This document shows, in pieces, positions 33,288-60,580 of a DNA stretch of 64,000 nt. Origin of the DNA: Paramacrobiotus metropolitanus (lineage: Eukaryota; Tardigrada; Eutardigrada; Parachela; Macrobiotidae); assembly GCF_019649055.1 (NCBI RefSeq), contig NW_026570253.1, forward strand, positions 1 to 64,000, written 5' to 3'. Every line of letters starts with the position of its first letter. The first letter of the stretch is position 1. The position numbers and the translations under genes are program-made. The notes under the pieces are model-generated. The model saw only the letters and a list, made by a program, of their open reading frames with translations, was not told the origin of the DNA and made no database searches.

Positions 33288-36200
33288 TCACCGGAACAAT
33301 CCGCTCGCCAATCCTACCATCCCAACGGCAACCGCACCGGCCACCCTAGCCGCTCCATTCTCAATCCGTTCAGCTATCGTGGCCGGTCGAATTCGTCCCG
33401 AACCCAGCGGGAGCTTCAGAGTTTGTTCACCCAGGTTAAACGCCTCCCCGGAATCCAGTATCAGGACCAAGGGGACCGTCGGCTCTTGAGCGACCACACG
33501 GAAGGTCATCATGCCGTCCGCGCCCAGACAGGCAATGTCTAGACTGGAGCCAAGGTATTTGTAACCGCTGAAAGTCCAGTTGCGGGCACCAGGAAGGGGC
33601 CGTGGGTGGACGAGAAGCTCGTCGGCGCGCAGCCGGATACCACCATATCCATTGATTACAGCCTGTATAAAGCAAACATTTGGGCACAAGCTTCAAACTG
33701 TGTGATTTACGCCCCTGCTTACTGAAATCAGTTTTCTCGCCGCTACAATGAACTTTTCCCCGATTCGTACAGCCGTGCTCATTTCTATGCCAACCATATA
33801 AACAACAAAAACTGAAAAAGCCAATGCTTCAATGATATCAAAAAAAGGTATTACTTATCTGAACAACTCTACTACGGACGACCTCCTAGTCCTAGAGTAA
33901 ATATTTAGGCCAACTACGCACTGTCAGAAAGACAAACGTAATCGAACGCCACCGCTGTACAACAACCACCCGGGTCACGCACATTATGCAGTGCAAAATC
34001 ATGTCATCTACCGTAGATAACAAAAAAATTTTTCGAAATAATCCAAAAAGCTAACTTGTAAAAATCCACCCATTCCCGTGAGGAAATTCAGTGCGCCCTG
34101 GCCACCGGGATTCTCCGACCAAACCTGCCGCAGGCAATCTCATCAAACCACTCACTTCACTTCAGATAAATACAAAAACAAAAACTTACACCAAACGGCG
34201 AGACGATATTCTCGTAATTTTTTACAAACAACAAATCGGCCTCTTCGTGGCGCTCCAGCTCCAGATAGCCGACGGAGAACATGCCCCAAGTCATGGCCGG
34301 ACCTTCCACATCCGTAATCTACATAAACTAGGCGACTCCTTATGAAGAAGCAACACTATAGAAGCCCGCCCTACGTTCAGATAGATGTCCAGATCATTGG
34401 CACGGATACTGCGATTCATCGGCATATCCAGCGGATACCCCAGAAGAATGACGTCCGCTAAACATTACAAACAAACGGATTAATTTACACATAAATGCAA
34501 TTGTCATAAGAGTAATTATAAAACAAAAAAAATATGAACAGGTTATGTGGTAAAACAAAAGTATAAGTACCTTGTTTGACAAGTGCCGGCTTCTGATGAT
34601 CTGTGGAATGTCGCTTCCCTGTAACAGAAGACGGCACGGTAACGCTTATGTTAAGGGATTTGGCCCGGTACATAGCGCTAAAATCGTGTACATTGACGGG
34701 AATTAATATTAAAATTAATACTAAGATTAAGATTAAAAATCTCTTACTAATCACTGTTCCATATTACGTAACATGACCGTCATCGAATTCTGGGTATTTG
34801 TGTTATTTAAAATAATGCAGAACGGTGTTGATAAAATGCAAAGCTGCGTAGCAAAATTTGTCCTCAGGTACTCCAATTTAACACACTACAAGCGCTTTGT
34901 TCTGTGCGTATCATCACCGCACAGACATACAAAAGCGCTATACATACACGCCAAATATACTAAACTACTCTGATTACCTGGAATGAATCCCTCAAATTCC
35001 GGATGGAAAACCCGTCCATCAAGGGTGTTTTCTAATATGATCAATTTGTTAGCAGTGTCCATCCATTTGGAGCAGTCTGGGTGGACAGTTCCGGTGAAAG
35101 TCGAGATGTATGCCGGTAAACTGAGCAGATCACCCGCAATTATTGCAACATCAAAATTATTAAACCGAGAAATGTTGTTGTACTTTAATGCAAGCTTGGC
35201 GATGTAATTCGTGTAGGCGGAATCATTGACGGGGAAGTGATATTCATCCGGCCCCATCACCACTGCAAAAACCAAAGGCATTCATACGTTTACTAACATC
35301 TGCTAAAAAATGCGACTAAGAGAATTCCGAAAAACGAATCAAATAGTAACATAAATAATTACTTTTTTTTCCACACTGCGGAGAACATCAACCGAATTGC
35401 GCGTATTTCGTCTTCTGCTAATACAACTCCGCAGTCATACGCTGTACGGTAGAATGATAAACCACGAAACCAGCAATCGGTTTTACTAATACAGATATAC
35501 AAATCTGCCAAATCTGTATGTGCATTTTCGCGTTTTTTCATTTTATTAAACGTCGTAATAAACAACAAGGAGTACTATTCGCAAAAATTAATAGAAGGTG
35601 ATAAGGTCGATAAAATTAAAAAGCTGAGTTTGTCTGTTATGATACTATTGAAAATGGAGAAAGCAGCAAGTGCAAGCCGAAAACACGCTTCGAAAAACAT
35701 CGATCTCAAAACCGAAACTACAAAAGTAAGCGGGTACTTACTCTCGATATGACAATTCCCGTCTGTGCAGTTGGTGCGCGTAAACCAAAACTTAGCCATT
35801 TCAACGGCCATTTCTTCCAGATTTAATTCCTGAATTAGCTCCAGCTTGTCGTGGCTAGCGTAAAGAAGCTGTCGGAGCGACAAAGCAATGTCGCCCGTAA
35901 CGTGCACTTCATATTCACCGGATTCTCGCCACGGACTGGTCTCTTTTCCTGTAATGCAATATAAAATTACTGGCATATCCTGCATGATTACGCGATTACT
36001 CCTGTTATCTAAAACCACTTCATGCATAAGCGTAAACCACTTCATGCAAAAGCGATCTGCAGAACGTAAAATAACGATAAAAACTGAAAGGCATAGCTTG
36101 GATAAATATACCAGAAAATGCAGATTCCCACGGATACTTGGCTCCCTGATATCCGTTCAAGATAGCGTTTTGTTTCGCCGGTTGCAGCATGTTAGCCCGG

Positions 36201-37926
36201 GCTTTAAGGAACAATTTGGCTTGAGCAGGATGAAAACCGAGAAATGGCGGATACTAACGGTAAGCAGATAAAACGAAATTGTCCACGTGATCGTACAGAA
36301 ACAAAGGACCAATTTTAAAAACTACTCACCATCCACGTATCGGCATCCCAGAAAACATGACCAGAATAATCCTTGTTAATGGCTCCGCGCGCTAAGCCAC
36401 CTAAATTCTTAACCAATCACTACAGCACCGAACTACGGAGTCATTAAGAAGAACAAAACGCTAAAACCTGTGATAACGTAACGTGAGTCATCATAGCAAT
36501 TCCAACGGGATTAATTAAAATGCCATTGGCTTGGATGAAATGTTCAACAGAATGGAGATGCAAAAAAGGAGCGCAAATCGACAGCATATTCATTCAAAAG
36601 CAGCTTCTGTGAGAAATTAATGTATTTCAAAAGACATGTACAAGAAAATGTTATTAAAACTGTTAAGGTAAAAAACTCTATGATTAAAACAAATACCTGG
36701 GCTCAGTCCAATGAACTTGTTAATCGGATCCTCCTTATTCGGCAACGACGAAAACAGATAATAAAAAGCACCATAGAGAGCTTGGGCCAGCTGGAAATTC
36801 TCCTCGGGATCAACGTCAATGCGTCCTTCGTCCCAGAACGATCGCCACTGATCAATGTGAGACTCGTACAGCTCGCCGGCACTAAGTGCTAACGCCGATT
36901 TTAGCGCCTGAATAAAAAAACGTTTTCACAAATTCAATTTGCAATCAAATAAAATTTTTTATTTTCAGAACTGCAGTAAAGCAATAAAATCTTTAACTGA
37001 TTAGATGGCATACGTTCAGTGCATCGTCGTGTTTCGTACTGGTGGACACAATCTGCAACAGTTGGAGGCTTTTCCCGGATGGGACAGTGAAATTCGTCAC
37101 ATCGCCGTTCCAGGCAACAGTCAGGTGAGAGAACGGCGTGTCTTCTGTTTCCGGTTTAAGATTGGTCCCGTCCGTAAATCTAATCCTGCAACGAAACCCA
37201 TCCAACCATTTGCGCAAGGTAAAGGAAATTCCATTTCCCGCACTACCGATTCCGAGACAGAATAAATGCAATTTCCCATAACTGTCGAAGCAAGCTTGCC
37301 TTACACTGTTCCTCCGCTGTGGATCGTTTTGGTAGCCTCAAACCACAAATCCTCACTCAACAGCTGATCTTGATTCGGTACGCCCAAATACAACACCTCC
37401 ACATCTCCAGAGGAAGTCTTCGGTCGGGATATGTGCACTTCGGAGACCAGCAGGCGATCGTAGCGGCGGTGTGCATAAAGTCGACGCTTGATCGTCAACT
37501 TGGGATTGCGGTAGACTTTCGTTTCATAAAATATTCCTACAAATAAAAAATTATGATCTGGTTATGATTTACTTACTTTAACCGGGTTAAGAATAACCAA
37601 ATAAAATTAGGCACGTGCGCAAAACGCAAAACATCTAACTTAATAGCGTCTTCAGTAAGAAATTCTGATACATTACACTGTTAATTCAGTGATTTTTCAC
37701 CTTTTTCGACATCTAAAACGTATTCTTCTTGCACCAAATCTGATGTGGCATGGCTTGTAGTTAGCTGGAAACCGACGAGGGAAGGAATTCGCGCCCGGCT
37801 GCTGGCGGTAAAGTTGCCATTGTACAATCCGTTCATATGGACCCAAGGGCTACGCACCACCGTAGCAATGTGCCCGTTTCCCATATCCGGCATGTATTTC
37901 GCTTCCGGTAACCTATAAACGAACAT
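33288..37926 (-). CDS. PGGHG: GH65 glucosidase, PGGHG/ATHL1-like, copy 1 (catalytic motifs intact)
   Basis: Protein-glucosylgalactosylhydroxylysine glucosidase family: releases glucose from the disaccharide on collagen hydroxylysine. Exons: 37701-37912 (or from ATG 37926), 37305-37536, 37014-37185, 36697-36907, 36330-36400, 36112-36253, 35742-35948, 34978-35262, 34571-34618, 34375-34457, 34190-34318, 34056-34124, 33288-33662; every junction keeps phase. Starting at 37926 gives 749 residues, close to the 737 I recall for the human enzyme. Both paralogs have an intron at 37912/37913, so a first exon with a signal peptide may exist further right, unfound. Motifs: GNGHIATVV, HVFWDADTWM, GAKYPWES, GPDEYH (35237-35254), VKQADVILLGYPLDM, GPAMTWGMF, VWSENPGG and NFLTGMGGFLQ. 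These keep the three carboxylates reported for the human enzyme. The C-terminus ends in a hydrophobic stretch (VAGAVAVGMVGLASGLF), which may be a GPI or membrane anchor signal. Confidence 0.92.
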
Positions 37927-38482: not shown

Positions 38483-38953
38483 TTACGCATCGGCGCTCCA
38501 CTGCCAGGGATTCCTCCCCTTTCCCCGCCATCGACTCCGCCCACTGGCCGTCCCCACCCTCAATACCACATCCCCGCGTCGCACCCCCTTCTCACGCTCC
38601 ACCGGCACAACGCCCTCGTCATTCTCCAGCAGCAGCAGCGCTCCCTCCGGGGCACTTTGCACCGTGATGCGCAGCTGCTGCTCCGTGCACTGCACATCCA
38701 GCACGTAGCCCTCAAACTCCACCACGGCGCTCCAGGCCTCCGGGGACACCGAGGGCCGGATATGCAGACGGCGGCCCTGCAGCGTGATGGCGGGATGCAT
38801 GACCAGTCGCAGGATGACACCGACACGGGTCAGCAGACTGACGCTGCTGGAGTCAGGCAGGATTTGGTAGAGGAGCAGGTTAATGAGGCAAACCAGCAGG
38901 GAGAGAGCCACGATGAGTTTAACGAGCAGTGACAGACTCTTATTCCATGCCAT
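38483..38953 (-). CDS. orphan C-terminal GH65-like domain behind a membrane helix
   Basis: Single open frame of 156 codons from ATG 38951-38953 (MAWNKSLSLL), GC-rich unlike its flanks. Residues about 10-30 form a strong hydrophobic helix (LIVALSLLVCLINLLLY). The rest resembles the C-terminal beta domain of the neighbouring glucosidases: VILRLVMHPAITLQGRRL lines up with LLQLVLFGYAGISLHPDRL of copy 2, and WSAVVEFEGYVLDV with WTLRGVDYRGFTLTV. No catalytic-domain exons lie nearby. It could be a type II membrane protein made from a duplicated last exon, or a pseudogene. A pyrimidine-rich tract ending in CAG at about 38850 could be the acceptor of such a last exon, in which case the hydrophobic part is intron. 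The frame also extends upstream to 39139. Confidence 0.5.
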   Translation of the reverse strand: MAWNKSLSLLVKLIVALSLLVCLINLLLYQILPDSSSVSLLTRVGVILRLVMHPAITLQGRRLHIRPSVSPEAWSAVVEFEGYVLDVQCTEQQLRITVQSAPEGALLLLENDEGVVPVEREKGVRRGDVVLRVGTASGRSRWRGKGRNPWQWSADA

Positions 38954-39139: not shown

Positions 39140-40316
39140 CTGATTGAGGGTACATCATTTACAGAAGGTAGGAATGTACAAAATCTTCCGAAGTTGTCCT
39201 GTAAAAAATTTTTTCCGAAGTTGTCCTTTCTCAAATGATTTTGTACAAATAATGTTCGCAGAAGTCGTAAAGGTAGGGTTAAAATTCTACAGAACATTTT
39301 CGGGTACCGAAGAATGTTTACAAACTGCTTGCGATGCAACAAAAAGAAACTCGAGCAGGTTGATATGCGGACAGCGTGAATGCGCAGTTGCTCATGAGCG
39401 CAACTCAACAGCCGCGAAAACTTTTGCGCGAAGCATTCCCAGCCGGTATCTAGATTTTCGTAGCTCTTTTGAGTTATGAAATATGTTAGTAAGACTTTTC
39501 TATTGTTGACAGCAACCGTGCTTGCGTCAACTTTCCTGTACACGTGTGCGACTTTTGTGCGCCGACGTTTTTCCGCCAGGCGGAAGTCGCGTGCTAGCCT
39601 TCAGCTTGTACAATGTAGGTACAATCTGTACGTACCGACGATACCGTACAGCATAGACCCACATTCGTGGGAATTGATGTTGCGTACGTACAGCGGCACC
39701 AGTTGGCCTTGTCGTGCTCTTCAGTGGATATTTGCATTCCACCGTATTAACACAAAATAATCGCTAACCAGTAAGGTCGGCAGCGCCGGCCGTGTGCTTT
39801 GTGGTCAATGCGTATTTGCATTTAATAAGGATCCGCTAGACATTTTATTTCCCGTAACATTTGCCTCTATTTAGACTTAATTATAATGTGTGTTTGTGCT
39901 GGTTGGAGTGCGAGAACATTAGCTGTCGATTTTTTGATTTCTTTTTGGCACGCCTTTAGCTAGAGCTTAAACTCAACGATATCGGTATCCAGCGATGACG
40001 TCAACTGGCGCTCCGCCTCATCCGGCACATGCACACAGAATCACAATCTTTGTGATTCGTTGTAGAATTTTAGCGGACGTTAATTTTCAAGCTGCAGTGC
40101 GGAATTTAACCCGTTTAGGCCTTCGCGGATTGCACAAAATCCCATTCGATTACCTTATCTTCACTTGATACAGCAATATCGTGACTGACTGATTGTTATC
40201 ATCTGCATCCTTGCACCCGGCGCACAACGCCTCCAGTCGACAGTTGTATCTTGGAGACCGGCCGATGCCAGAAGCTGTGATCGTTCTTCGTTAGTTTACC
40301 AACACCAATTTGCATA
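39140..40316. other. intergenic, upstream of the GPCR
   Basis: No supported gene. It should contain the promoter of the plus-strand GPCR and perhaps the missing first exon of glucosidase copy 1, for which I found no convincing signal-peptide frame. Confidence 0.35.
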
Positions 40317-43030
40317 ATGATGAGTTGGAATACTAGTGAAACCATTGCGGATTTACTTCTCAATCAAACTGATTCGCCTGCATCATCGGTTGTGCGGGAC
40401 AAATGCGGCTGGATCCCGGCATATGGCCGCGTGCAACAGCATCCGCTGCGGCTGTTGGACATTTACTCGTATCCTTTCCTGCTTTTCCTCGCTACACTGG
40501 GCAATATCATCAATCTGATGGTGTTGACCAAGGACAAGCCCTTTGCGTCAAAAAGTATCTACTTAATCGCGTTGGCAGCCATGGACATGCTGTATATGTA
40601 CGTTGTTATAAGACGAATACATGCAAACAAAATAAGTTCACTGACGGTAATTGGGTAACCTTATGTTAATTCTGTGCTCTGGTTTTAAATATTTCCTTAA
40701 TTTATTTTAACTATATTGTACGCAGCTCGTATATTGCATATTGTGTATATTTTCGTCCAGCCTGCCCTCATCTTAAATTGTCGCCGTTTTTAATTTGACC
40801 AGAATTATCACTGAATTAATCTGCTTAAAACTATATACTCGTACTTACCAGTTTGCTGAATATAGGCGTAATATTCTGTCAAACTTCTCTTGGATAATAA
40901 ATTTATTTTTTTACATAGTTAAAAATTTTAACTTAAAATTGTTTCTTTGGTGTCAGATTTGGGTCTACCGGTGCGTTTCTGCATTTAAAAGTAGAGCAAG
41001 TGCACATACTCTGTATGCGCTTGAACTAGCGTGATATGCAGAAAATAATTCTTGTGATCGTAGGTGGTGCGCTCTTCTATACTATGTTACGGGCTTTGCC
41101 CGGGAGACGGAAATCTTAAACATTTATTTGGATTCACTGACGGTAATTGGGGAACAAATCTCTGGAGTAACCGGCTTCTTTCAAGAAATCGTAAATACAG
41201 CTTCAACATGGTAAGCACAACTTGAAGTACATTATTTGAATTGTGCATATCCTGCAGTCCCAAATGCAGATTAGTTGACCAAGCGGCAATTTTCTACCGT
41301 ACATTCAGACTAACAGCAGCCATAACATTAAGAGCAAAAAAGTACTGCGCGCGATTGTATGGCGTGTTTAGTTTTTTTGCTAATTCAACCGCCATTTAAT
41401 CTTGCTATGACACTGAGATATTTTATTTTCAAAGTTATTTTGGTTAAATCATGTTAATGTTAATAATTAATATCAAGTACTTTCTATAGTGTGGGTGTAC
41501 TTTCTATAGTTCTTGTTAATGTTAATATTATCAATAAAGCAAATGTATGCCGCGCAGAGAATTATGGTACGTATACGCCTAAGTCACCTATAAGTATTAG
41601 GCTATTACAGCACGTACAATATATTGTTTTTGTACAGAGGACTGTCTGTCTGTCTACATTTCGCATTTTTCCTCACAGAGGAAAATATGCGTAATCGATA
41701 ATGAGTAATATCTGTACGGGTATTAGCGATGTTTACGTGCTTGTAACCCATTTGCGTAAATATCACAATCACCAGCTGTGCATTTTTATGGTTTATGTTT
41801 CCGAAAATTTCTTATTGTGCGGCGAAAACATTCCATTTATGCAAGATTGGGTCATTTTGGCAGCTCTATAACGCTGTCTCTCTGCCGGTAAACAGCGTAT
41901 TAGAAATCACAATGGCCAATTGTCGTTTTGACAGGCTGATTATTGCTTTCACCATTGAGCGCTTTGCGGCAATTAAATTTCCGTTATGGCATTTGCGCCA
42001 CTGTCACAGCCGGCGCGGGACACTCATCCTGACCGCCATCCTGACGCTGGCGGCATTGTTCGCCGTCAAATCCCTGGTGCGTCACTATTGGTACTACCAC
42101 CACTTCCTTCGCTACCAGCCGCCACCGGCACAAGTGCCACCCTATCCCCCGCTCTTAGCCACGTGGTACAATGGATACCAAATTGCAAGGGTAAAGTAAA
42201 AATTAACGCTGTTTATTTCATCGCCCACCAAATCATAAAATAAAAATTAAACCCATGCGATTTCTAGCCGGTAGTACTGAAACAGTTCACAGAAACTTTA
42301 GAAGGCATATATAAAAATATCAAATACTAGCTATCAACAGTAACTTTGCCAGATTAAAACCTTTTGTTCCACTGCTGTTGGGCTTTCGTATGGCTTAATA
42401 TGATTCGTATGGTGGTGTGGTCTTCGGAAGATTTTGGATAAATTTTAACGAGGAACCATTGTAAAACTCTCAGCTAGGAATATAATGCATGCTTTTATTT
42501 TGAAGAATCTCAACCAAATGACGGCCTTCCTAGTGATTCTCGTCCTCAATGGTTGGCTGGTGATCTCCGTGGCTCGCCAGCAGCGCTTCCGCCGCGAGAG
42601 TCTGCACGCCGCGGAGAGTAACCGCTCGCACATTGACTGGGGCGCACTGGGCATGTTGACAGCCTGCGTCTCACTGTATCTCATCACGCAGACTCCAGCC
42701 TTTGTTAACCGCATTCTAGAGCTATTGCACCATCACTGCATCCGGGAGCGGTCCTATGTCACGCGGACGATTCTGGCGTATTTGCAGAATTTTCTCTTGA
42801 ATGTCAATTATTCCTCTAACTTCATCGTGTATTGCGGTACCAATCCCAAATTCCGCTTGGCGGTGCGGCGTTTGTTTGTGACCCCCGGCGTGGCTATTCT
42901 TCGGAAGGCGTCGCAGGATGTGACAAAGGTCACGGGAAGTACCCGCTTTTCCCGCGCTAATTCCGATATACGCAGTTTGCTGATGTTGCTGTATAAAGAG
43001 AAGCACGTGGATATGGCCGGCAGTTCGTGA
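40317..43030 (+). CDS. class A peptide-type G-protein-coupled receptor
   Basis: Seven-helix plasma-membrane receptor. Exon 40317-40597 (ATG MMSWNTS, two N-glycosylation sites) carries TM1 (FLLFLATLGNIINLMVLT) and the start of TM2 (SIYLIALAAMDMLYM), ending at a strong GTACGT donor. An exon of about 41848-42190 carries TM3 and TM4, with IERFAAIKFP in place of the DRY motif and a Pro-rich extracellular loop. Exon 42506-43030 carries TM5 (TAFLVILVLNGWLVI), TM6 (LGMLTACVSLYLI), TM7 with NYSSNFIVYC and NPKFR, and a 35-45 residue tail. AR|NL joins the last two exons in phase 0. The exon completing TM2 and the first extracellular loop was not located in 40598-41847. The layout resembles FMRFamide/peptide receptors; the ligand is unknown. 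Confidence 0.8.
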
Positions 43031-45064: not shown

Positions 45065-48000
45065 ATGAGTACGTTGTCGGTATCTGGATTTATCGTTTTT
45101 CTGACACTCATGTCGGCGCTGCACGCAGGATATGCAGACCCCTTTTCAGTGTATACACTGCGCAAGTAAGGTCACCATGTTTTTTCGCCAGCGTTGTATC
45201 TATTTCCATAAATAGCGGCGTCTCATTGCTACATGTATGTCTGTTTAATACAAAAGCAGAATTCACCGTCGTATCTGAATGAAAAGTAAATGATTTTACT
45301 TAATATAAACAGCTTAACCCGACCACATCCCTATATCGGGAACGGTCACCTCGCCACCGGCATTTTCCATCCCTTCGTTTACATCCAGGGTCTATACACA
45401 ACGGGAAATGACAATGACACTCGCCGCGTCGCCGTTCCCTCCTCAATCAACATCCGCTTTGATCGCAGTGACGCCGCGGACCGCATATACCGTCTACATA
45501 TGGATAAAGGTCTTCCTGATTTTACTACTTAATCAGCATCGAGTTATGTTCTCGCACCCCATTATTCATGGCTTGTTGCACACGATTACGGCACTATCGA
45601 GTAAAACAGTTTGTAAAAAATACGTTAGCTAAACGTTAGTTAAAGGCCAAAATTCGAACAGTGTTCGAATTTTGGCCTTTAACTAACGTTTAGCTAACGT
45701 ATTTTTTACAAACTGTTTTACTCGGGTATGTACTTCTACTGTCTACACAGAACATTGTCTTGTATAGTACCGATGCGCATGGTTTTTGCCGCAAAACACC
45801 AGTACCAATGCGCAATAATGTTAATTTCGATTATGATGCAGAGAGCATAGTTTTTCGACTTACGAGTAGTTCTCGTCCGCCGTAACTACCAAATTAACTC
45901 TTTAATCTTATTTTCACGGTGGACGATTATCCTGGTGAATTTAACGCCCTGTAATAACTAATTAGTATAGTGGGTGTATTTCTAGTAGAAACTGGGAACG
46001 GTTGATTTGCAGGATACTTTGAAGTGGTCATCCGAACGCCGACGCATGTTCTGACTCAGCGAATGTACTGTCATCTGTGGTTACCGGAGATTCTGATCAT
46101 GGAGGTAGAAGTGATGCGGCACGCTAACAGCACCAACGCCCGGCTGGAGGTGCCCTACACGCTGGAGAATGTCCTTGAGTCACCGGATGTAAAGTTTGAC
46201 GATGTGACCAGCATGCAGGAGCTAAATCAGCACATACAGTCAGTGTCACTCGCATTGGCACGGCATATTAGAATAAATATTGAATCTGTATTTTTTCTAT
46301 TACGACTACAATTATAAATTTGGCTGTTAAAGATCGTATCGTTCCCGGAACTCAATAATTGTTTGAGTTCTTTTGAGGGTATAAAACTGATTTTTATTGC
46401 ATTTCCGTATGCCATGTGGACGTTTTGTTATTTACGGGTAGGGTTCAGTGTCAAACCGGCCGGCGAGGCATTGTCAACATCTGCGTGGTCGGTGATATCC
46501 TGGACAGCTCCTTCATTCCCGATCGTGGTACGACGATGTCCCGCAATATCTACATTACCAGCTTCGACACGGATAAGGAAGCCGCATTAGAAGTAAGAGG
46601 TCACCAACAGTTAGCTGTGTACTTGATACTGCTATGGCTCTGCACAATAAAGCGTGACCTGAGCTACTTATTGAACGTCGCTAGCGCTGGAATAGTTGTG
46701 CATACTGGAATTAATTATAGTGGAATCGTTATGTGTACTGGCCGAAGCCTAATAAAGTAGTACTGTACTGGAATGAGTTTATTTAAGTACAAAGGACGCT
46801 CCAAAAGTAACTTTCCCTATTTTGCCTCCCTGCCATTTGAAGTAATAGACATGTGATATATTTTTCGTTGTATAAGCAATTATGTAAACTAATTAGAGAA
46901 ATAAGAATCAAAAGATTTAATGAAGAACTGGGAAAACGAAAAACAAATTAGCAATACTACTTATACATTCATTTCCACGAGTTTTTTTGAAGCTCGTTCT
47001 TTTTATTACCACTTCCGTCCCTGTTGTAATTTCGGCAGCAAATTTAAAGTACCAGCTACAAATACTGTTCTTAATATTACTGCAATAACAGAAGGCTTTG
47101 AAAAATATACGGAGGAGAGCAAACATTTTTTTTCTCCATGACGCCGGAATCCCCCTTTTCAGCCTTCTTGCTGATATGAATCCGAAAGTTCTTAACATCA
47201 ATAAAAAGGAAATTTCATGCGCAGTCATGAGGGTCTTGGACACAAATAACTTCCAGCTGTACCGACAGCAATATTGTTTTACAAGAAATTTTCGATTTTT
47301 TACCGTCTGGCACCTTGAGCAGCTCTGTGGTTTTTCCACCTAGTCATCGAGAGTTTCTACTTTTCTGGAAAAGCATTGCAAAGAAGTTATTTTGTTTCGT
47401 TCTTGGAATTAGGACAGAAAAGAATTCCTAATCTGATGATATTTGGTGCTTTCCGAAAATTGAGCAGGAAGACTGAGAAAAATAACAAAAACTGTCAGGG
47501 TAAAACCCGTGGCAAAGTGCCGATAACCTCGGACGGCTTTCTCGGCAGTTCTCCATTTGATTGTAGTTAGGTAGAGCTATATTTTATTTTGGTTCGTGAG
47601 TGAAGGACGTTTCTAAAAATATGGTTCATAAGAACTAAAAGCATTCAAGCCGGGAGATACAAAATAGGGAAACTTACTTTTGGAGCGTCCTTTGTATCAT
47701 CAATCACCGCTTAAGTATCATCTAATTAACTGACAGGCCTGCGCGAAAAGTGACTTTTAAAGTTAAACTGCAGGCGCGCATATCTAGTTCAAGTAACTAA
47801 TTTGGCAATGCTATAAGCCGGAAAATTATGTTAACAGAAATATGTACAAGCAAGGAAGGAGGCCAGTACCGGCATCCTGTGGAGTCGGCACGTGGACGCC
47901 TGGAACTGGCGGTGGAACCGCGGACAGATCACCTTCCAACCGCAAATGGCCGCTAATCAGACGCCCAACGCGTCCGCTGTCCATTTGGCGCAAGCGGTGC

Positions 48001-51000
48001 ACGCCTCCATGTACTATCTCCTAAGCTCCATTCCCGAGCATCCCCAGTACGCCGAGAATTTCCCTGGATTGAGCAAAGGTCCGCCTAACATCTACTAGTA
48101 TTTAGTAGCTATAGGAATCTCATAATAAAGATAGGAAACTGGCGAATTTGAATATTTGTCAGCTGACAACTGTGCACTGTTTTTTCAAAAAGAGTTTTGA
48201 TGCGGTTGAATCAAATGGTTAGCTAGGAAAATTTAACTTCAGCTTATATTACAGCGACTCTTGCTAATGAGGATTCTGGTGTGTACATTAAGTCGCCGTC
48301 GCCGTAACCAGTATTTAATACTCGTACTTACGCCATAATACAGTATCTGTATAGATATATGGTGCGGCTGTTCCAAGTTTGACTTTTAACTGTACTGATT
48401 ATTATGGCACTTTTATTCCGTGGCATTAATCTTCAACTACCAGTGGCGTTTCTATAAAATTCTAATAATACACATACTTTTTCGGGTCATTGAACACTCC
48501 CGAGTTAATTATAACTGACTGGTGAGAGTTGTTTAGAATCTGCAAACACCACCGCCACAATTGTGAGGCAGTTATCGCTACCGCGGTAATAAAACTGAAA
48601 AGATTGCTTTGGTAAAAAAATTATTAATAAGAAGAACAGATAATTTCACTAAATGTGGAAAACATAAAAGAAACATTTGTATTACGTATTCTTTCAAAAT
48701 CTCTTTATCAGAACATCTGCCTGAATAATAATTAAAGGGTCAACACATAAATATGATCAAGGCTTGTTTTCAAGATAATTGAAAGTACCGTATTTCACCA
48801 GAAGAAAATAAAGACGGAAATGCATTGCATTACAGACGGCTTATCTAGTAACGACGACCTGGGGCGTATCCGCTGGGAACAGGAGCTATACATGTTCTTG
48901 CCGCTGCTGCTCTTCCATCAGGACACTGCCGAGCAAATTCTCAACAGCCGCCTTAACAATCTGGCTGCTGCCCTGGCCAACGCCCGGCCCCTGTACCGGG
49001 GCGCCCGTTACCCGTATGAGACTGCCTCCTCCGGACGGGAACTGGCTGCTAACTTTTCGCGAACTCTGTTTACCAGCGGCGCTGTGGCGCTAAACATGCA
49101 GCAGTATTTATACACAATGGGATCCGCAGCAAATATCGGCGGGGAGAATGCTGTTAGTGCCGCGCGGGCCATTGCAGACTTATACGCCGGTGCGACGCAG
49201 GCCAGTGGAGCTGTTGCAGGTGGCTGTGATTATTTAAGAGCACAAATTTTCACCACCACTTTTCTCTTATTAGTATATCGACAAACATTAAATTCTGGTC
49301 TCTTTGATTTCGTTTTTTCTAGCTACCAACTGCAAAAATCTAAAAAATATGTTTAAGTACGCACTTTAAGTACGCACTGTTGTATAGTTTCCCGGCCAGC
49401 ATATCATCAAATTATGAAAAAAATATGGAAGCTGCAAATGGTGGGAAAAACTGACGCATAAATAACGTAAATAGAATAAGCGTATCTTAACCAGCAACTA
49501 TACATTTCATCATTTGTTACTATAATTTTCAGATTATCATTTGCAGGTATCCAGAACATTAAAGGCACGGTGACCTTTAACGATGCGCTGACCAATGCAC
49601 TGGCCATCGTTGGTCTAACCCTGCCCCAGAAACTGGGACCCGGTGTTAACGGAACCTACCAGAACGTTGCCGAACGCATTGCGGCGGATAATTTCCCCAT
49701 GTTTCGCAACTGTCATGCAGCCAATGGGAATGCTAGCAATCCCGGAGCCCTAGCACCGACAGGTATTTCTCGTTCAAAGTACACCTAATAATGCTATAAT
49801 GTTTCCCTGAATTCGAATTTCGAAATCAATCGGCATGGTGAAGCGGTGACGGAACTGAAGTAACTTACCGGTTCCATCAAGTTATCAATTCCACCCAGAA
49901 TTCTAATCAGGAATTCGACTTAATACGCTTCACCATCAGCAAACCATGTGCCCCAAGAATCTAATTAGATTCAGCTATAAACATTCAGCAAAGCAGCTAT
50001 TTTAGCCGTCCCTACCTCATTCGTGGTGTGGACATTTATCGTTAATTTTAAAATCCGTATACCGGTATGTGTAACATCTTCATCGGTGTATGAGGTAACA
50101 GAGTGTGCCAAAAGAAACACTTCTGTTGCTACAATCTTATAAAGAAATAAAGGAACTTTATATACTTTGAAGCATTGTGATACATCATAGTAGTTATTAA
50201 GTTTACTGGATGCAGCTAAACACATACAGAACCTCTGTATCTCCTTCATTTCAATAATCCTCCTTGATTTAAGCTGTGCCCAACCGAAAGAAAGACTTTT
50301 ACTGCAAGTGATATCTTCTCTAAAAGTTTGCACTGGCCGTAATAAATGACTTTCCCAGCTCATTCGCCTTATGAGAAAGCAGAATCGCTCTTTTGTATCG
50401 TCGACTGCTTCAATATGGCGGCGAGTGCCCACTTATCCCAGTTTAGCCGTCATCCTGGCCGAGATTAAATCCATTACCAGTTTGTCAGCGCTGCAATCCC
50501 ATTTCCCAGCGGCGGGGACATCATTTCGACCCGGCATCGTAATTGCCGTGTTTTTTCCCGTTGCCGCCTGATATGATGGTCGATGGGCACCATTGATTGC
50601 TTTGCCGGCTCTGAAAGAGAGAACAGCGCGTGCATAGATCTACACAGCAGTTTGGCTTTTGTGGTGGCGGATCATATAATTTGCAGAATTATCCAATTGA
50701 CTCCCGGAAGTGGCGCGCGTATGCGCGCATATGGCAGATTGCACCGGCTCATACATCACAGTAGCTGTCACAGTGCTGTGTATATGCACAACATATACAA
50801 CTTATAGATTATCCATACGGTGTGCGTATTTGTGGAATGTTAAGAAAACCCGGCAGTTAGCACAGGCTCGACTACTGACCCAGATTTAAGGCTGATATTT
50901 TACTTTGGTGCTTTTTCGGCTAACGTTGTTGGTCGGCTGCCGTGCAGCGGATGTGTACAAACGTTCGCTAAAAGTGCCGTGTGTGCTGTTTGATCAGATT

Positions 51001-53486
51001 ACTCCTACGAGCCGGATGCGTTGCTGGTGTACTGGCCGGTGGGGAATCAGCGCTTTTTCAATTCAGGACTGCTCCTCAACGATCTCACCTGCCACAAGGT
51101 ATGCTGTCACTGTCCATGTAAACTGTACTTGTTGTTTTCGTAATAACAAACATTTTTATGCTGTAGATTAAATCCAAAACATTTGTTTCCGTTCTTGCCT
51201 CGATAAATGGAAATATTGTCAGGTTATCAAAAAAGTCTTAAAATTTATAAAACTATTTGAGGCAAATATCCTGATTTTAGCAAAGCAGCAGACGAAAAAA
51301 ACATTAATTTTTCCGACATTTTTCATGGCTATGCTGATTGCTGAAGCAGCGTTATTATTATTTCCATTCCTTGGTGGTTAGTGTAAAAACATCAACGACT
51401 CTTCTGCAGATTTGCTCGCAAAACTTCGTTATGATTCTGTTGAGAATACATACTGCAGGAAGCGTTTTGTTTGTATATCTATAGATGTTGTTGCATTTGT
51501 TAAAATTAATATTATCGTAATTCATAGAATTAATATGTTTAAGAGTAATATTAAAAAATTTATAACAATAGCCAAATACAGAGTGTATAAAACATTAGCT
51601 TTCAAATCACTTACTTAAGCAGTTTGTTTACTTATGATTTTTTCATTGATAATTTTTACGCGACTGGTGCCGGATTGTTTAGGAAGCGACTATTAGTCGA
51701 ACAACTTATAATCTGCTGCGATTGACACTCTACCAAATCGCGGCAAAGTCGGCTAATACCAGCGGACAGATCAATCCTGATGTGTACGCGGCGGAGGAAA
51801 TTAAATTCCAACAACTTCTTAATTGGACCAGTCGGCATTTTGGGGTAAGATTTGGGGATGGTTACTACCTGCTGCACTAGGAAGATACATAAATAGCGAG
51901 AAAATCACACAGTCGAAGCACAATATGTATCTTGTTCTGTTTCATAGCCTTTTATTTCATTGAGGCAGTTTTATCTCGAAAATTGAGAAATAAAAAATGT
52001 TTATGTAGCAACATGTTTAAATTATTTTAAGTAATATTTAACTGGGCCAACTTATGTTCCTTGTGTATTCATTGTTTTTTGGGATGCATCGTTGCAGTCG
52101 GCTCAGTTTCTTTACTACAGCTACTGCTTCGTTTGATTTCGGATGTTACGAGCACATAACACAGTACGTGTGAGAATCTCCGTAAATATTACGGTATGCG
52201 CCAGAGCAGCCGCGCACGGACGGCAGTTCGTGAAAACTGCGAGTGGTCGGAAGTCGCTATTTCTGCCGCTTAGCACATGTTCGAAACAGCGACTTTAAAT
52301 ACTGCTCATTCAGCTAATGATCTGTTAGCGAAATCAAGACCATAACCAAAATGTGCAGAAAAATGTGCTCTACAAGGAAATGTTAGCTGTCACATGGAAA
52401 TCTGTTGCTGCAGTGACTTATTGCCGCCAGCGCTTTGCACCATGAAATTCGGTACTATAAATTATTAAAAAATTATAAATTATTTCTGTTATAAAGTTAT
52501 GTTATGTTATAAATTATTTATTATGTTATTATTATGTTATGTTATGTTATGTTATTATGTTATAAGTTTTGTTATGTTATAAACTATTTCTGTTATATAA
52601 TTATATATTATTTCTGTTATAAATTATTTATAATTATAAATTATAAATTATTTCTGTTATAAATAATTTATAATTATAAATTATTTCTGTTTCTGTTATA
52701 AATTATAAATTATTTCTTTCTGTTATTTCAGTACTATAAATTATTTCTGTTATTACTGCGCACCTGTAGTTTGCCCTGTTAGCGCTATGCTGAATTCGCT
52801 GTTGGTTAGACCACTCATACAGCCAATGAGCGTGTTTGCACCGGCTCCGCCCCTCTACCGCATACCAGAAATTGCAAAGTACAGTAGTACGTACATTTGC
52901 CGATTAATTGCACGGTACATTTGCACGCAATATTCACATTGAACCTCCTAGGTCGTCGGCAAGTATGCCTACAACCTGTGCAGCAAGCGGAAATATTTAA
53001 GTAACCGTACCGTGCACTTTCTCCATTGACTTTTACCAGATCATCCCGGAATCGATTGATTCCCGCTTAATCAGCGACCCGACATCCCCCGGGGCCAATC
53101 TCAGTCTCCCGGGCGCCGGTGCTCTCCTCCAACTGGTTCTTTTTGGTTACGCCGGTATCTCCTTGCACCCCGACCGGTTGACCTTAAACCCCCGACACCC
53201 CCCGGGCGTGGAGTCCTGGACACTGCGCGGTGTCGACTACCGGGGCTTCACACTGACCGTCAGCTTTCTGCCAACGTCCATCCATATCCGGGCCCAAAAG
53301 AACCGGAAGGAGCCGGTGCGGCTGCAGGTGCGCGTGGATGGATGGCTGCGCGAGGTACCGGAAGAGGGCGTGACGATACGGTGGGGCGAAGTGCAGGTGA
53401 CGACGATTATGGAGAAGGAGGCTGAGGAGCACTGGGACCGGGATCCCTTTCTCATGCAAACCAATAGGTATTTATTTCTGGACTAA
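45065..53486 (+). CDS. GH65 PGGHG-like copy 2, probable secreted pseudoenzyme
   Basis: Exons: 45065-45165, 45313-45509, 46013-46238, 46442-46592, 47838-48078, 48836-49219, 49547-49762, 50998-51098, 51683-51844, 53040-53486. They sum to 2226 nt, an unbroken frame of 741 residues. Exon 1 is a clear signal peptide (MSTLSVSGFIVFLTLMSALHAGYA). The family fold is recognisable throughout: PHPYIGNGHLATG, ASMYYLLSSIPEHP, FLPLLLFHQDTAEQIL, ARYPYETASSG, PDALLVYWPVG, and a C-terminal GYAGISLHPDRL domain. All three catalytic motifs are gone: FWDxxxW is RWEQELY, the GPDEYH position reads NIKGTVTF, and the VWSE segment is replaced by a stretch with no equivalent Glu. Donors after 45509 (GTCTTC) and 48078 (GTCCGC) are weak. 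The open frame and kept intron phases argue for a functioning non-enzymatic protein rather than a pseudogene. Introns 2, 4 and 9 hold a palindrome, a mariner-like element and an AT-rich tandem repeat. Confidence 0.85.
45598..45724. repeat. perfect 127-base palindrome
   Basis: Two 63-base arms (45598-45660 and 45662-45724) are exact reverse complements around a single G at 45661. The outer ends are CGAGTAAAACAG and CTGTTTTACTCG. It lies in intron 2 of glucosidase copy 2. No clear target-site duplication is seen. It could be a very young foldback/MITE or a library or assembly fold-back artefact. Confidence 0.97.
46790..47694. mobile_element. mariner-like DNA transposon, non-autonomous or decayed
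   Basis: A 905-base element with terminal inverted repeats of about 35 bases with one mismatch. They begin CAAAGGACGCTCCAAAAG at the left end, and the complementary end is at 47660-47694. It is flanked on both sides by TA (46788-46789 and 47695-47696), the target duplication of the Tc1/mariner superfamily. The interior has short open frames (46920-47343 +, 47376-47570 +, 46917-47339 -), none of which I can match to a transposase. It is inserted in intron 4 of glucosidase copy 2 and does not touch an exon. The near-identical ends suggest recent movement. Confidence 0.85.
52452..52757. repeat. AT-rich tandem repeat (TTATG and TTATAAATTATTTCTG units)
   Basis: Contains a run of TTATG pentamers around 52510-52560, flanked by many copies of TTATAAATTATTTCTG-like units. 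It lies in the last intron of glucosidase copy 2. Its length is likely polymorphic. Confidence 0.85.
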
Positions 53487-54021: not shown

Positions 54022-57000
54022 CTTGCCGACATCGCGTTTTCTGCCGGAAATCGGCAACGGACATATTGCCAGCGTTGTTCACGCTCCATGGCTGCACATG
54101 AATGGCCTCTATAATGGTGCCGGGTCGCGCAGCAGCCGAGCGCGGATTCCCTCGCTGATTGCTTTCAACATCAGCCTGCAGGACGCCACGCTCGCTAACC
54201 AGTCATTTACTCTCAACCTACGCGAAGGTCACGCAATATTCTTTTCGTTCCAAGAATTCACAAAACCGCTTAGGTCGCTCGATTTGAATTAAAGAGAACA
54301 ATTTCGATTTACAATTTAGAGAAAAAAATCTAATATATTGTTAACCTGTACAACCTTTTTTGGACTAAATTAATGTTTTAGACAGCCAATAAATAATTAA
54401 TTTTAACTGTGACCATCACATGCAATAAACTGCCAGTACTGCACTCACTAATGTTAAAATAAATTACTAAAATAATATTATTGTCCGCCTGCAGGCATCT
54501 ACACGGAGCGGAAGCAATACGTCAATCCGGATGTGCTCATTGAGCGGGAAATGTTCGCCCATCGCCTTTATCCCAGTTTGCTCATCGCGCGCATTAAGTG
54601 CAACCGGACAGCACCGGCTTCCGGTGCTGTGCAGCCGCCGGCATCCAGCGATCTGCCGGTTCTGTTGCTGGACGGACTGCTCGATGAGAGCCAACTGGAG
54701 AGCGACGATATCGTGTTCAAAGCCACGATCCGGTGCGTTTCCGACACAACGTTTGTCATATTCTGGCTAATGAAATATAGTTTTCGTCCATACACGGTCT
54801 CTTTCGCAATCGGTATAAACTAAAAACAACGCCTGAACAGCTTTCGTTTCTTGTATACGAAAACCGCTGATATGCATAAAGTCGTTCAACGAGTTGACAT
54901 TTGGTTTAATTCACCATGGCAGGCCAAAAGGGCAGCGCATCAAAGTCGCGCGGGGCGAAACTTTAATTCCGGAAACTACGAATTCCACCTTTTCGCCGGT
55001 TATTATGGCCTGGAACTCCAGTGTGGAACTGCGCGACTACGTGACTATTCCCGCTAACGGCCTGGAAATCATCCAGTACGTCTCCATCAGTTCAGATGAA
55101 GACGCCGCCGTCAGCGTATGTCTAATGACCTTTCCGTGACTACCGCCTCGTTCGCTGTTTTCTTGAAATTACGTGTTGCTGATTTGAACAGAATTTGTCG
55201 CAAGTCCTCAAATACAACTACAACACCGTTCGTGGCATGCACATTGAAAAGTGGGGCGAGTATTGGGAGAACGGGAGGATTACGGTGGAAGCGCAGGAGA
55301 ATTTCCCTTTGGCACAGGCAGTTAATGCGGCCTTTTACTATCTGCTCAGCTCGCTGCCAAATTATGAGGAAGGCAACGGAAGTTTTGTCGGACTGAGTCC
55401 AGGTACAAATTAAACTACCTTTAATTATTGTTAAGTTTAAAAAAAACGGTGTTGCATTTAAATTAGGTGGATTGGCACGTGGTGCGCCCGGAGCCGAGAT
55501 CGATCAGGATTACTTGGGGCATATTTTCTGGGACACAGAAATATGGATGGTTAGTTGTGCAAGAAATTGCAGAGTACGTGTATTTCATGGTGTGGTAATG
55601 GTTTATTTTGTAGTTTCCGCCAATATTGCTCTTCCATCCAGAACAGGCCCACTTGCTCTTGCACGCTCGCACACGAGTGTTAGAGGCCGCCAGAGCAAAC
55701 GCGGCCAGCACTGGATATCAGGGTGCACGATTCCCCTGGGAATCTGCCTTAACCGGTACTGATTTCATTACTTCACTGTAATATTAAATTATAATAAAAT
55801 CGAAAATCATAAGGAAGCCAGCTAATGAAACGCTTAAAATTAGACGCCAAGAAGAGGCATACTAAACAATGTAGCGGATGACCTTTATTAGGCAGCGAAG
55901 TAACGCCCTGGCCGCCCGCTGCGCAGTACCAACTGCACGTAACCGCCGACGTGGCCTTGGCTGTGCGACAGTATTTGTATGCCATCGCCGACAAAGCTAA
56001 GGCCATCCACGAGTTGCGACTTGACGTGCTCGTGGAGGACATCGCCGCGTTCTGGCAGAGTCGGGTGACCTGTGATAGCCGTGTGATAAACAATGACGAT
56101 GTTGACCACATCTGCCACATTAACGGTAAATGGTAGTCACGTGCATCATGTGCCGACGTACTTTCGAGCACGGAAAGCTCAACTAAAGGATTTATGTCGC
56201 AGAGGTCATGGGGCCGGATGAGTATCATTACCCCGTTAACGATTCCGCCTTCACAAATTACGCCGCCAAACTGGCCTTGACGTAAGTTTATTAAAACACA
56301 TACCTAGGTGCATTTTTCTGCGGATACTTTGTATATTTCATAGTTCTTTTGCTGCTTTCTCTGCTACGTACTAAATTATCAACTTTTGTCTATTATTTAG
56401 GGGCTCTAAAGTAAAAGCGTATAGCAAGCAGAACGTGTGTGGTCAACTGTCTTTCTGATCTTTGCAATTTACCCTAATACAAAGTATATACCACATATTT
56501 CCGTTCGCACATAGTTAGATGTTTCTTAAAGCAGTACTGATTTCCCGAATTTTTTCCCAGGCTTCCAGAGTACGTTTTACCGATAATCGGGAAAAAGCAT
56601 CCGGATATTGATAAATGGTTTGCCACAGCCGAAGACATCACGATGACGGAATCCCGTTACAAAGGTCAACCGTACCATCCACAATTCAAGGGCTTTGTTC
56701 CAAGTACAGTATAATAATTATACAGACCTTTTTCGGCTACGAAGTTTGCTCATAAATTATATCTGTTGAACGCAGATGAGTGGCATCCTGCGAGCAGTAA
56801 GAAGAAGCCGGTCGTTAAACAAGCTGATACTATTTTACTGGGATATCCGCTGGACATGGACATGCCAGTAGAGATGCGCGCCAATGACCTGAACATTTAC
56901 GAAGAGGTGAAAACCGAAATTGTTGCAACAGTGCCTGTTGACAAAAGTGACGTATGCATGGTTGGTAGCTGACCAGCCCAAACGGCCCGGCCATGACCTG

Positions 57001-58052
57001 GGCTATGTTCGCCATCGGACATCTGGAGCTGAAGAACAAAATGAAGGCGGACAATTTATTCAATCGATATAAGGACAATTACCAACAACCTTTTGGCGTA
57101 TGTTCTTGATACTCGCATTATTCTTCTCGATAAAAGCATCCCGTATCATACTGGTCATAAATACTTACCGATCTAGAAGTGAAGAACGGTTATTACTTAT
57201 TTCCCATTTCGTTTTGTTCTATTATTGTAATTTATAGCATATCAACCAGCAGAGACTTTTACTTTGTGACCGGGCTATTACAAATTATTCAAATTTTAGC
57301 TGAAAGTGGACGATTTACTCAATTTCAGACAGTCTGCATTGATTGTCGTTATCGATAGATCGGCTAACACGAGACTATTTTACATTATTTGCAGTGCATT
57401 CAAATTAATGCAAACTGCATACAGTGTGCAGTCAAACATTTTTGTGCTGTTTATTTCGTTGACAATTGCAACGTGACCTTTTCGATGCGTCTAGGTGTGG
57501 TCAGAAGAACCCGGTGGCAGCGGCGCCGTCAACTTCCTAACGGGAATGGGTGGTTTCCTGCAGGTCTGAACCCAGCGCTCACATGTAGCGGTAATTTCGT
57601 GACCTAATGTCTTACTGTTGCAGTCTGTTCTCAACGGTTACGGCGGCCTTCGTCTGCGTGAAGACAGTCTACATTTCGACCCGGCCGACCTGCCCGGCAG
57701 CAGCCGCTGGAGCATCCACGGTCTTAAATACCTCGGCCACACTCTGGACTTGACCTTTGACTTCCTAGCTGACACCATTAACGTCTCCGTCAGTCGGACG
57801 GTGGACATCGATCTGGTGCTGGAGACGGAGAGCGGGAAGATCTTTTTGCTAAAAGATGACACGCGCCTGAGCTACCGGCGCGAAGCCAGTACAATCCGCA
57901 TGTACCATCCAGAGTTCGATGTCATCCGCGATCCGGTGAGTGGGGAGATCACCGGGCCCAGTAGTCTCAGTCCAGCGCAACTGTTGCCGTCGTTGTCCGT
58001 TTTGTTGGCCTTAATTTTTATGATTGTCTATTCCTTCCCAGAATTTTTTTGA
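54022..58052 (+). CDS. PGGHG: GH65 glucosidase, PGGHG/ATHL1-like, copy 3 (catalytic motifs intact)
   Basis: Exons: 54022-54227, 54495-54732, 54923-55115, 55192-55402, 55467-55549, 55614-55755, 55892-56125, 56203-56281, 56561-56703, 56776-56906, 56969-57097, 57495-57563, 57624-58052; phases agree throughout, giving about 761 residues without the missing first exon. Motifs: EIGNGHIASVV, HIFWDTEIWM, GARFPWES, GPDEYH (56211-56228), VKQADTILLGYPLDM, GPAMTWAMFAIGHLELK, VWSEEPGGSGAVNFLTGMGGFLQ. These keep the three catalytic carboxylates of the family. Several exons have the same length as in copy 1 (211, 142, 129 and 69 nt), so the two are close paralogs. It differs by one extra intron (56282-56560) and one lost intron near VKQ|AD. 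It ends in a hydrophobic tail (LLPSLSVLLALIFMIVY), probably a membrane or GPI anchor signal. The donor after 54227 (GTCACG) is weak. Confidence 0.93.
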
Positions 58053-58969: not shown

Positions 58970-60580
58970 TCACTGGACGAGTGAGTCACCGAAACACTAT
59001 CACCGACCACTGAGCGGAATCTCTAGATGAGTAGGTGACCAAGCTACCACCACTGACCAGTAAGAAAAATCGGTAGACAAGTGAGTGACCGAAACACCAT
59101 TACTGCCCACTGAGCGGAATTTCTAGGTGAGTAAGTCATCGAGCGGGCTTTGCTCTTGCTCACCCAACGGGCTCTGTGCACTGGACAGTAGTTGTAGCAG
59201 GGTCACATCGTCACCTAGCGATGTTTCTCCTTACCTAGCGATATTTCTTACTGGACAGGTTGAGCTTGGTCAGTCACTCACCTAGTGATTGAGTGCGTCA
59301 AAAAATCGCTAGGGGAGTACGTGACCGAGCTACCACCACTGTCCAGTGCCCAGAACCCGTTAGGTGAAAGAGTACCGAGATACCACTACTGTCCAGTGCA
59401 CAAACTCCGTTAAGTGATCTAGTGACCGAGCTACCACTACTGTCCAGTGCATAGATCCCGTTAGGAAGATGGGTAACCGAGCTACCAATACTGCCCAGCG
59501 CACAGAGCCCGTTAGGTGAACGCGTGACCGAGCTAACACTACTGTCCAGTGCACGAACTCCGTTAAGTGATGTAGTGACCGAGCTACCACTACTGTCTAG
59601 TGCATAGATCTCGTTAGGTAGATGGGTGACAGAGCTGTCGATACTGTCCAGTGCACAGATCCCGTTAGGTAGATGGATGACCGAGCTACCAATACTGTCC
59701 AGTGCACAGAGCCCGTTAGGTGAACGCGTGACCGAGGTACCACTACTGTCCAGTGCACGAACTCCGTTAAGTGATCTAGTGACCGAGCTACCACAACTGT
59801 TCAGTGCATAGATCCCGTTAGGTAGATGGGTGACCGAGCTACCAATACTGTCCAGTGCATAGATCCCGTTAGGTAGATGGATGACCGAGCTACCAATACT
59901 GTCCAGTGCACAGAGCCCGTTAGGTGAACGCGTGACCGAGGTACCACTACTGTCCAGTGCACGAACTCCGTTAAGTGATCTAGTGACCGAGCTACCACAA
60001 CTGTCCAGTGCATAGATCCCGTTAGGTAGATGGGTGACCGAGCTACCAATACTGTCCAGTGCATAGATCCCGTTAGGTGAACGCGTGACCGAGCTACCAC
60101 TACTGTCCAGTGCACGAACTCCGTTAAGTGATCTAGTGACCGAGCTACCACAACTGTCCAGTGCATAGATCCCGTTAGGTAGATGGGTGACCGAGCTACC
60201 AATACTGTCCAGTGCATAGATCCCGTTAGGTAGATGGGTGACCGAGCTACCAATACTGTCCAGTGCATAGATCCCGTTAGGTAGATGGGTGACCAAGCTA
60301 CCAATACTGTCCAGTGCATAGAGCCTGTTAGGCGAACGCGTGACCTAGCTACCACTACTGTCCAGCGCATAAACTCCGTTAAGTGATCTACTGACCGAGT
60401 TACCAGTACTGTCCTTTGCATAAATCCCGTTATATTAGGTAGGTGGGTGACCGAGCTGCCAAAGCTATCCAGTGCACAGAGCCCGTTAGGTGAAAGTATG
60501 ACCAAACTGTATTACTGAGCAAAATAGAGCAGGGCCTGCTACGTTCTTAATGGGTGACCTATCTAGCACCACTGTCCAGT
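58970..60580. repeat. 51-base minisatellite with 204-base higher-order period
   Basis: About 23 clean copies of a 51-base unit (core GTGACCGAGCTACCA...CTGTCCAGTGCA) lie at about 59305-60490, with degenerate copies on both sides. Three subtypes differ at the junction: GGTAGATGGGTGAC, GGTGAACGCGTGAC and TAAGTGATCTAGTGAC. Blocks of four units recur; for example, the segment starting at 59672 repeats at 59876, a 204-base period. Because 51 is a multiple of three, long frames open on the minus strand (59298-60296 and 59801-60505) with 17-residue repeats of type VTHLPNGIYALDSIGSS. Two overlapping frames both stay open, so they are better read as a by-product of the repeat than as a protein. Confidence 0.93.

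Follow-up and report, generated by a model that had tools for sequence, protein, structure and literature searches.

The catalytic residues of GH65 have been assigned in the kojibiose hydrolase FjGH65A (7fe3), an active enzyme with acid E472 and base E616, and the accessible part of its description, from which we also took the sugar contacts used below, reports less than 0.1% activity for each of E472Q and E616Q (PMC8626586). For human protein-glucosylgalactosylhydroxylysine glucosidase (PGGHG, ATHL1; GH65; PDB 9sd4-9sd8), the essential carboxyl residues are given as Asp301, Glu430 and Glu574 in the available portion of a study that also describes ATH1, a GH65 protein of the tubeworm Lamellibrachia luymesi in which the Glu430 position is altered to Asp, beside a conserved ATH2 (PMC10077716). 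Acid trehalase-like genes number two in R. varieornatus (PMC5531438), three in H. exemplaris and two in the other tardigrades compared (PMC6652013), and the text available on them is silent about catalytic residues. For Paramacrobiotus sp. TYO, eight trehalase paralogues are reported, in available text that names neither GH65 nor acid trehalase (PMC8277472). Here we describe copy 2, a GH65 gene that lies between two paralogs, copies 1 and 3, in the first 64,000 nucleotides of contig NW_026570253.1 (hereafter the window) of the tardigrade Paramacrobiotus metropolitanus. One of the three catalytic carboxylates, the general acid Glu430, is lost in copy 2, and our best reading of its sequence is that it encodes a GH65 pseudoenzyme that is old, non-hydrolytic and probably secreted.

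Catalytic residues of copy 2

Copy 2 comprises 10 exons on the plus strand (45065-53486) that join into 2226 bases, giving 741 sense codons and one terminal stop, in agreement with the unbroken 741-codon frame of an initial annotation of this DNA. The exons are listed below, with scores from a hidden Markov model (HMM) that was built with copy 2 itself included.

Exon 1, 45065..45165 (+): start methionine and likely signal peptide MSTLSVSGFIVFLTLMSALHAGYA; codon score in frame +0.04
Exon 2, 45313..45509 (+): N-terminal domain; HMM 1.9e-28
Exon 3, 46013..46238 (+): N-terminal domain; HMM 3.9e-31
Exon 4, 46442..46592 (+): HMM 6.5e-14
Exon 5, 47838..48078 (+): HMM 8.8e-33
Exon 6, 48836..49219 (+): RWEQELY at 48871-48891, with Glu320 (for Asp301) at 48877-48879; HMM 8e-56
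Exon 7, 49547..49762 (+): IQNIKGTVTF (49549-49578) in place of the general-acid motif GPDEYH; HMM 7.6e-22
Exon 8, 50998..51098 (+): Tyr509-Glu510 (51006-51011) for the subsite -1 Lys-Gln; HMM 1.7e-8
Exon 9, 51683..51844 (+): HMM 3.6e-11
Exon 10, 53040..53486 (+): IIPE with Glu597 (53049-53051), GH65 C-terminal beta domain, stop; HMM 2.6e-56

Catalytic positions were read from an alignment of 57 rows, made up of the three copies, human PGGHG and every one of the 53 bacterial loci retrieved, the bacterial rows being stop-to-stop frames around the match with rough N-termini. Robustness was assessed with 8 MAFFT runs, using four settings on 4 or 57 rows. The Glu430 column holds Glu in all 56 other rows; copy 2 has no carboxylate there and places Thr443 at this position in 8/8 runs. 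The segment that replaces GPDEYH, a motif already recognized as lost in the initial annotation, reads GIQNIKGTVTFND, and its sole acidic residue sits in the downstream ND. The Asp301 column is Asp in 56/56 other rows (53/53 bacterial, a count biased by the search pattern) and Glu320 in copy 2, where FWDxxxW has become RWEQELY, as first described, with the tryptophan after F/R kept (Trp319). Six patterns gathered the bacterial set, FWDADTWM among them, so conservation of FWD in these rows is partly by construction, and the acid and base positions fall outside all six.

The substitutions extend to the sugar contacts. The subsite -1 Lys-Gln pair is Tyr509-Glu510 in copy 2, although this pair also varies within the family (Lys in 42/53 and Gln in 48/53 bacterial rows). 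Three of the four FjGH65A subsite -1 contacts are changed (Asp344, Lys538 and Gln539) and Trp343 is kept; at subsite +1, Trp391 is replaced by Tyr and Thr407 by Ser. Glu392 is kept, as Glu367. Across the 57 columns that are near-invariant in at least 90% of the 56 other rows, copy 2 keeps 25, and the next lowest row keeps 43. Retention by residue class was 8/10 for glycine, 9/16 for aliphatic, 4/12 for charged, amide and His, 2/11 for aromatic, 1/5 for Pro and 1/3 for Ser/Thr.

The catalytic base, by contrast, survives. No Glu had initially been seen in the VWSE position; in fact exon 10 opens with IIPE, the base glutamate stands fourth in its exon in each copy (VWSE becoming IIPE in copy 2), and Glu597 aligns with Glu574 in 8/8 MAFFT runs, in a column that is Glu in 56/56 other rows. 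The claim that all three motifs are replaced was thus overstated: the acid motif is lost, but the base Glu and a carboxylate at the Asp301 position remain. This raises the alternative that copy 2 is a neofunctionalized enzyme, in which the kept Glu597 and Glu320 would work with a new acid or on a changed substrate. The constant placement of Glu597, the replacement of Asp301 by Glu and not by a neutral residue, and the retention of Glu367 and Trp319 are all consistent with it. However, no carboxylate stands in place of Glu430, the Lys-Gln and Trp391 equivalents are changed, and loss of the acid in E472Q left FjGH65A below 0.1% activity in the accessible text (PMC8626586). We therefore regard an altered enzyme as unlikely.

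Gene structure and coding signal

All gene models were built from genomic DNA alone, and the exon boundaries of copy 2 were placed from homology to its two paralogs while the frame was visible. All nine introns are GT-AG. Intron phase matches both paralogs at 8/9, as the family phases in the initial annotation had it, with four introns on the identical alignment column and four within 1-8 columns. The first intron is phase 2, as the first acceptor located in each paralog requires; a counterpart of exon 1 was looked for in the paralogs and not found. Copy 2 lacks three introns that both paralogs have, a point initially missed. Two of them map inside exon 6 (48836-49219), which corresponds to three exons in each paralog, and the third maps inside exon 10, after the FLQ position of copies 1 and 3. 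Either copy 2 lost the introns behind the exon 6 difference, or these introns arose before the two paralogs diverged.

Codon log-odds, with the two paralogs as the training set, favored the correct sense frame in 10/10 exons of copy 2 (0.04 in exon 1, 0.24 in exon 9 and 0.47-0.77 in the remaining eight) and were negative in all three frames of 9/9 introns. GC content at third codon positions was 0.64, versus 0.37 for the introns.

A different choice of exons could in principle restore the motifs, and models drawn from genomic DNA only are open to such an artefact. The window's 2733 open reading frames (ORFs) of at least 15 residues were searched with the HMM in six frames (--max, E<=5), a search that shorter exons would escape, and no further GH65-like plus-strand exon was found in the copy 2 introns; at this threshold we reject hidden exons that would restore the catalytic motifs. 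The only two extra matches were a C-domain piece described below (E 3.9) and a minus-strand segment at 48242-48385 (E 4.1). An artefact of the gene model is, in our judgment, very improbable.

The introns of copy 2 total 6.2 kb, versus 2.4 and 1.7 kb in the paralogs. Intron 2 holds a perfect palindrome (45598-45724) with 63-base arms separated by 1 base, perhaps a young foldback element, and intron 4 holds a stretch of ~0.9 kb (46788-47696) with terminal inverted repeats of 37 bases at 97%, which has the look of a degraded DNA transposon.

Age and selection

A 22-row tree, for which 18 of the 53 bacterial rows were used, joins copies 1 and 3 (support 89/91) within a group of all three copies (90/89). 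The end branch of copy 2 is 3.27, versus 0.70 and 0.62 for the paralogs, or about five times longer, and the duplication giving copy 2 is probably older than the one that separated copies 1 and 3. A three-sequence codon model rejected omega=1 on the copy 2 branch, both with 592 codons (2dlnL 20.98) and with 255 gap-free codons (2dlnL 19.72). Moreover, among the columns changed in copy 2, the new residue is hydrophobic in 33/51 family-hydrophobic versus 19/73 family-polar columns (p 2e-5). The protein has changed fast over this branch, yet not neutrally.

The very long branch, the longer introns, in part a product of inserted elements, and an expression that is so far a prediction would all suit a pseudogene young enough to be still free of stops. 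On the other hand, 741 codons are free of stops, splice sites are unbroken, coding bias runs through the last exon, and neutrality over the branch is rejected. When neutral decay was simulated from copy 2 (400 runs per divergence level), the frame stayed stop-free in 9% of runs at 0.03 substitutions per site, in 4% at 0.05 and in 0/400 at 0.1. Because a stop-free frame is this rare under simulated decay, copy 2 could be a pseudogene only if its death were recent, possibly within ~0.03-0.05 substitutions per site. The replaced sites look too many for so short a time and would therefore have arisen while the frame was kept. We consider a young pseudogene decidedly unlikely. The initial view of a full-length GH65 protein retained after catalysis was lost is supported by the missing acid, the open frame, the rejection of neutrality on the branch and the preferential keeping of hydrophobic residues and glycines.

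Family, fold and cellular location

Copy 2 passes the curated Pfam cut-offs for GH65 (PF03632/PF03633): the central model scores 30.2 bits against a cut-off of 27, covering no more than residues 303-380, and the C-terminal model scores 22 bits, just at its cut-off of 22. In the PDB, each of the three copies finds its best sequence match in human PGGHG (E 3e-32 for copy 2). A kojibiose hydrolase label (NCBIfam) was rejected, as its 70.9 bits fall far below the cut-off of 800. GH65 searches of the 170-Mb genome returned 5, 17 and 30 matches, all of them in the present cluster, on the contig that holds the window; no other GH65 locus was found outside it in these searches, which scored the best candidates only, such that weak loci may escape. 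In the same genome a tardigrade CAHS protein has 20 matches, the top two with 65% and 71% identity, in line with a eutardigrade.

Only contiguous exons were folded, and the copy 2 model covers exon 10, the C-domain. Its mean pLDDT is 62, with core blocks at 71-84. Human PGGHG takes the top five Foldseek places (prob 1.00, root-mean-square deviation 2.3-2.5 over 95-98 columns, E 0.006-0.02), an outcome favored by the related exons contained in the model's alignment.

The signal peptide given in the initial annotation is plausible from a maximum 15-residue hydropathy of 2.01 in the first 40 residues, although 1.85 is reached elsewhere in the protein. There are 10 N-glycosylation sequons in copy 2, against a shuffle mean of 5.5 (sd 2.0), and 8 and 9 in copies 1 and 3. 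The C-tail of copy 3 (within 57624-58052, +) is clearly hydrophobic at 2.65, with at most 1.29 elsewhere, and that of copy 1 (within 33288-33662, -) is weaker at 1.86, with 1.79 elsewhere; these values suggest a glycosylphosphatidylinositol (GPI) or membrane anchor in copy 3 and, less clearly, in copy 1. Copy 2 is without a hydrophobic C-tail (0.55).

A likely secretion signal, a human collagen-glycan glucosidase as the nearest solved structure for all three copies, and the kept Trp and Glu392 equivalents would fit the collagen-glycan lectin that had been proposed at the outset, a special case of the pseudoenzyme reading in which the ancestral pocket binds glycan. Yet among W343, D344, K538 and Q539, which line subsite -1 of FjGH65A, Trp alone is unchanged, Trp391 has become Tyr, Thr407 is changed as well, and no result in this analysis ties the tardigrade proteins to collagen. 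The changed pocket thus disfavors such a lectin, which we rate as quite unlikely.

A probable non-hydrolytic role

Several points weigh against a retained, non-hydrolytic copy 2. Because the choice of exon boundaries saw the frame, the open frame is partly non-independent evidence; the codon score skipped stop codons, and when it was taken across the complete coding sequence, one antisense frame reached 0.41, compared with 0.57 in sense. Copy 2 played no part in choosing the 57 conserved columns, and its score is biased downward as a result. Neither tree support reaches the starred level, and the long branch flagged for copy 2 leaves its placement unsure. A single omega for all three copies also fits and is not rejected (2dlnL 0.75 and 1.45). 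Synonymous change is saturated (pS 0.69-0.74), as is pairwise dN/dS, and with branch times at their bounds the omega values themselves are unusable; the copy 2 branch also spans time before the acid was lost. The exon-10 model has no Foldseek match under E 0.001, and secretion and anchoring are hydropathy readings, not trained-tool predictions. The survival of Glu597 and Glu320 makes altered or weak chemistry possible. Finally, the case is built on the genomic sequence of one assembly.

With these points counted, we think it likely that copy 2 is real, selected and non-hydrolytic, while any single specific role is tentative at best. An inverting GH65 hydrolase requires both acid and base. Without the proton donor, such hydrolysis would not run on natural alpha-glucosides, and a protein with the base, no acid and most glucose contacts lost would be expected, if expressed, to bind. 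Provided that copy 2 is transcribed and folded, its signal peptide would export it and, with no hydrophobic C-tail, it would be soluble. It would then most likely bind either as a non-catalytic partner or decoy for the neighbors' enzymes, or by holding a new ligand in the remodeled pocket; a role as inhibitor or partner of the active copies, as initially suggested, is possible. With most of the former glucose contacts altered, a lectin that binds through the old pocket appears less probable than a role as partner, decoy or binder of a new ligand.

Neighboring paralogs and other features of the window

The GH65 features flanking copy 2 are as follows.

33288..37912 (-): copy 1, paralog, 13 exons, all three catalytic carboxylates; PGGHG E 7e-104
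38483..38953 (-): possible fourth piece, C-domain only; 156-codon ORF (open upstream to 39154) whose product would join a hydrophobic N-terminal helix to a GH65-C-like domain
54022..58052 (+): copy 3, paralog, 13 exons, all three catalytic carboxylates; PGGHG E 3e-105

Copy 1 lies on the strand opposite to copy 2, ~7 kb away. Both paralogs had been called intact, and in keeping with this they hold the three carboxyl residues and no internal stops. Their first coding exons are another matter: a mechanical listing gave 32 candidates for copy 1 and 27 for copy 3, none was convincing among the 12 of each viewed, and intactness is to that extent unproven.

The C-domain piece gave shuffle z values of 5.7, 6.4 and 4.5 against copies 1, 2 and 3, copy 2 being nearest, and of -0.04 against human PGGHG. 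BLASTP returned no match for it, and the HMM matched it only at E 3.9. Its AF2 model has a pLDDT of 66, and GH65 entries occupy Foldseek ranks 1-5 (prob 0.92-0.99, E 0.07-0.15, none below 0.001). The piece is possibly a relic or a stand-alone membrane-anchored domain, as far as its sequence indicates. No other GH65-like ORF was found between it and copy 2.

Also between copies 1 and 2, at 40281-43030 (+), are ORFs with sub-threshold matches to seven-transmembrane receptors (7tm_1 E 0.008, Srsx E 0.002), which are probably exons of a single receptor-like gene. At 59320-60491 lies a tandem array of a 51-base unit in ~22 copies, with a higher-order period of 204, and a minus-strand ORF of 348 codons traverses it.

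Comparison with known systems

Human PGGHG and copy 2 share 23.8% identity over 580 columns, and the human base, Glu574, is kept. The human enzyme has Glu430, Asp301 and Lys-Gln; in copy 2 the first is missing, the second is Glu and the pair reads Tyr-Glu. Human PGGHG is intracellular; copy 2, unlike it, has a likely signal peptide. FjGH65A is an active enzyme with both acid and base, of which copy 2 retains the base alone.

Other families are known to contain non-catalytic glycosidases. GH18 chitinase-like proteins and alpha-lactalbumin are non-catalytic proteins with a glycosidase fold, in which the fold was retained, catalysis lost and a new binding role gained, as we propose by analogy for copy 2; they belong to families other than GH65. 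A more speculative proposal, which we hold to be possible though doubtful, is that copy 2 founded a tardigrade-specific subfamily of secreted GH65 proteins with ligand-binding or regulatory functions, perhaps together with the putative stand-alone, membrane-anchored C-domain at 38483-38953. In such a subfamily the carboxylates at the base and Asp301 positions would have been kept, the acid motif rebuilt and the glucosidase fold repurposed.

In the open full-text literature (closed journals and preprints being outside its scope), we found no description of a GH65 pseudoenzyme and none of a catalytically inactive duplicated acid trehalase-like protein. Provided that it is expressed, copy 2 would offer a clear example of a GH65 pseudoenzyme, with conserved adjoining paralogs as built-in controls, and tardigrade 'acid trehalase' counts may include proteins unable to hydrolyze anything. 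The nearest published case that we found, going by the available portion of its source, is the single Glu-to-Asp change in the tubeworm (PMC10077716). Like copy 2, Lamellibrachia luymesi ATH1 is there an animal GH65 paralog with an altered acid position and a conserved paralog alongside. The extent of change differs: ATH1 is described as a Glu-to-Asp replacement, whereas copy 2 has lost the whole of GPDEYH together with 32 of the 57 near-invariant residues.

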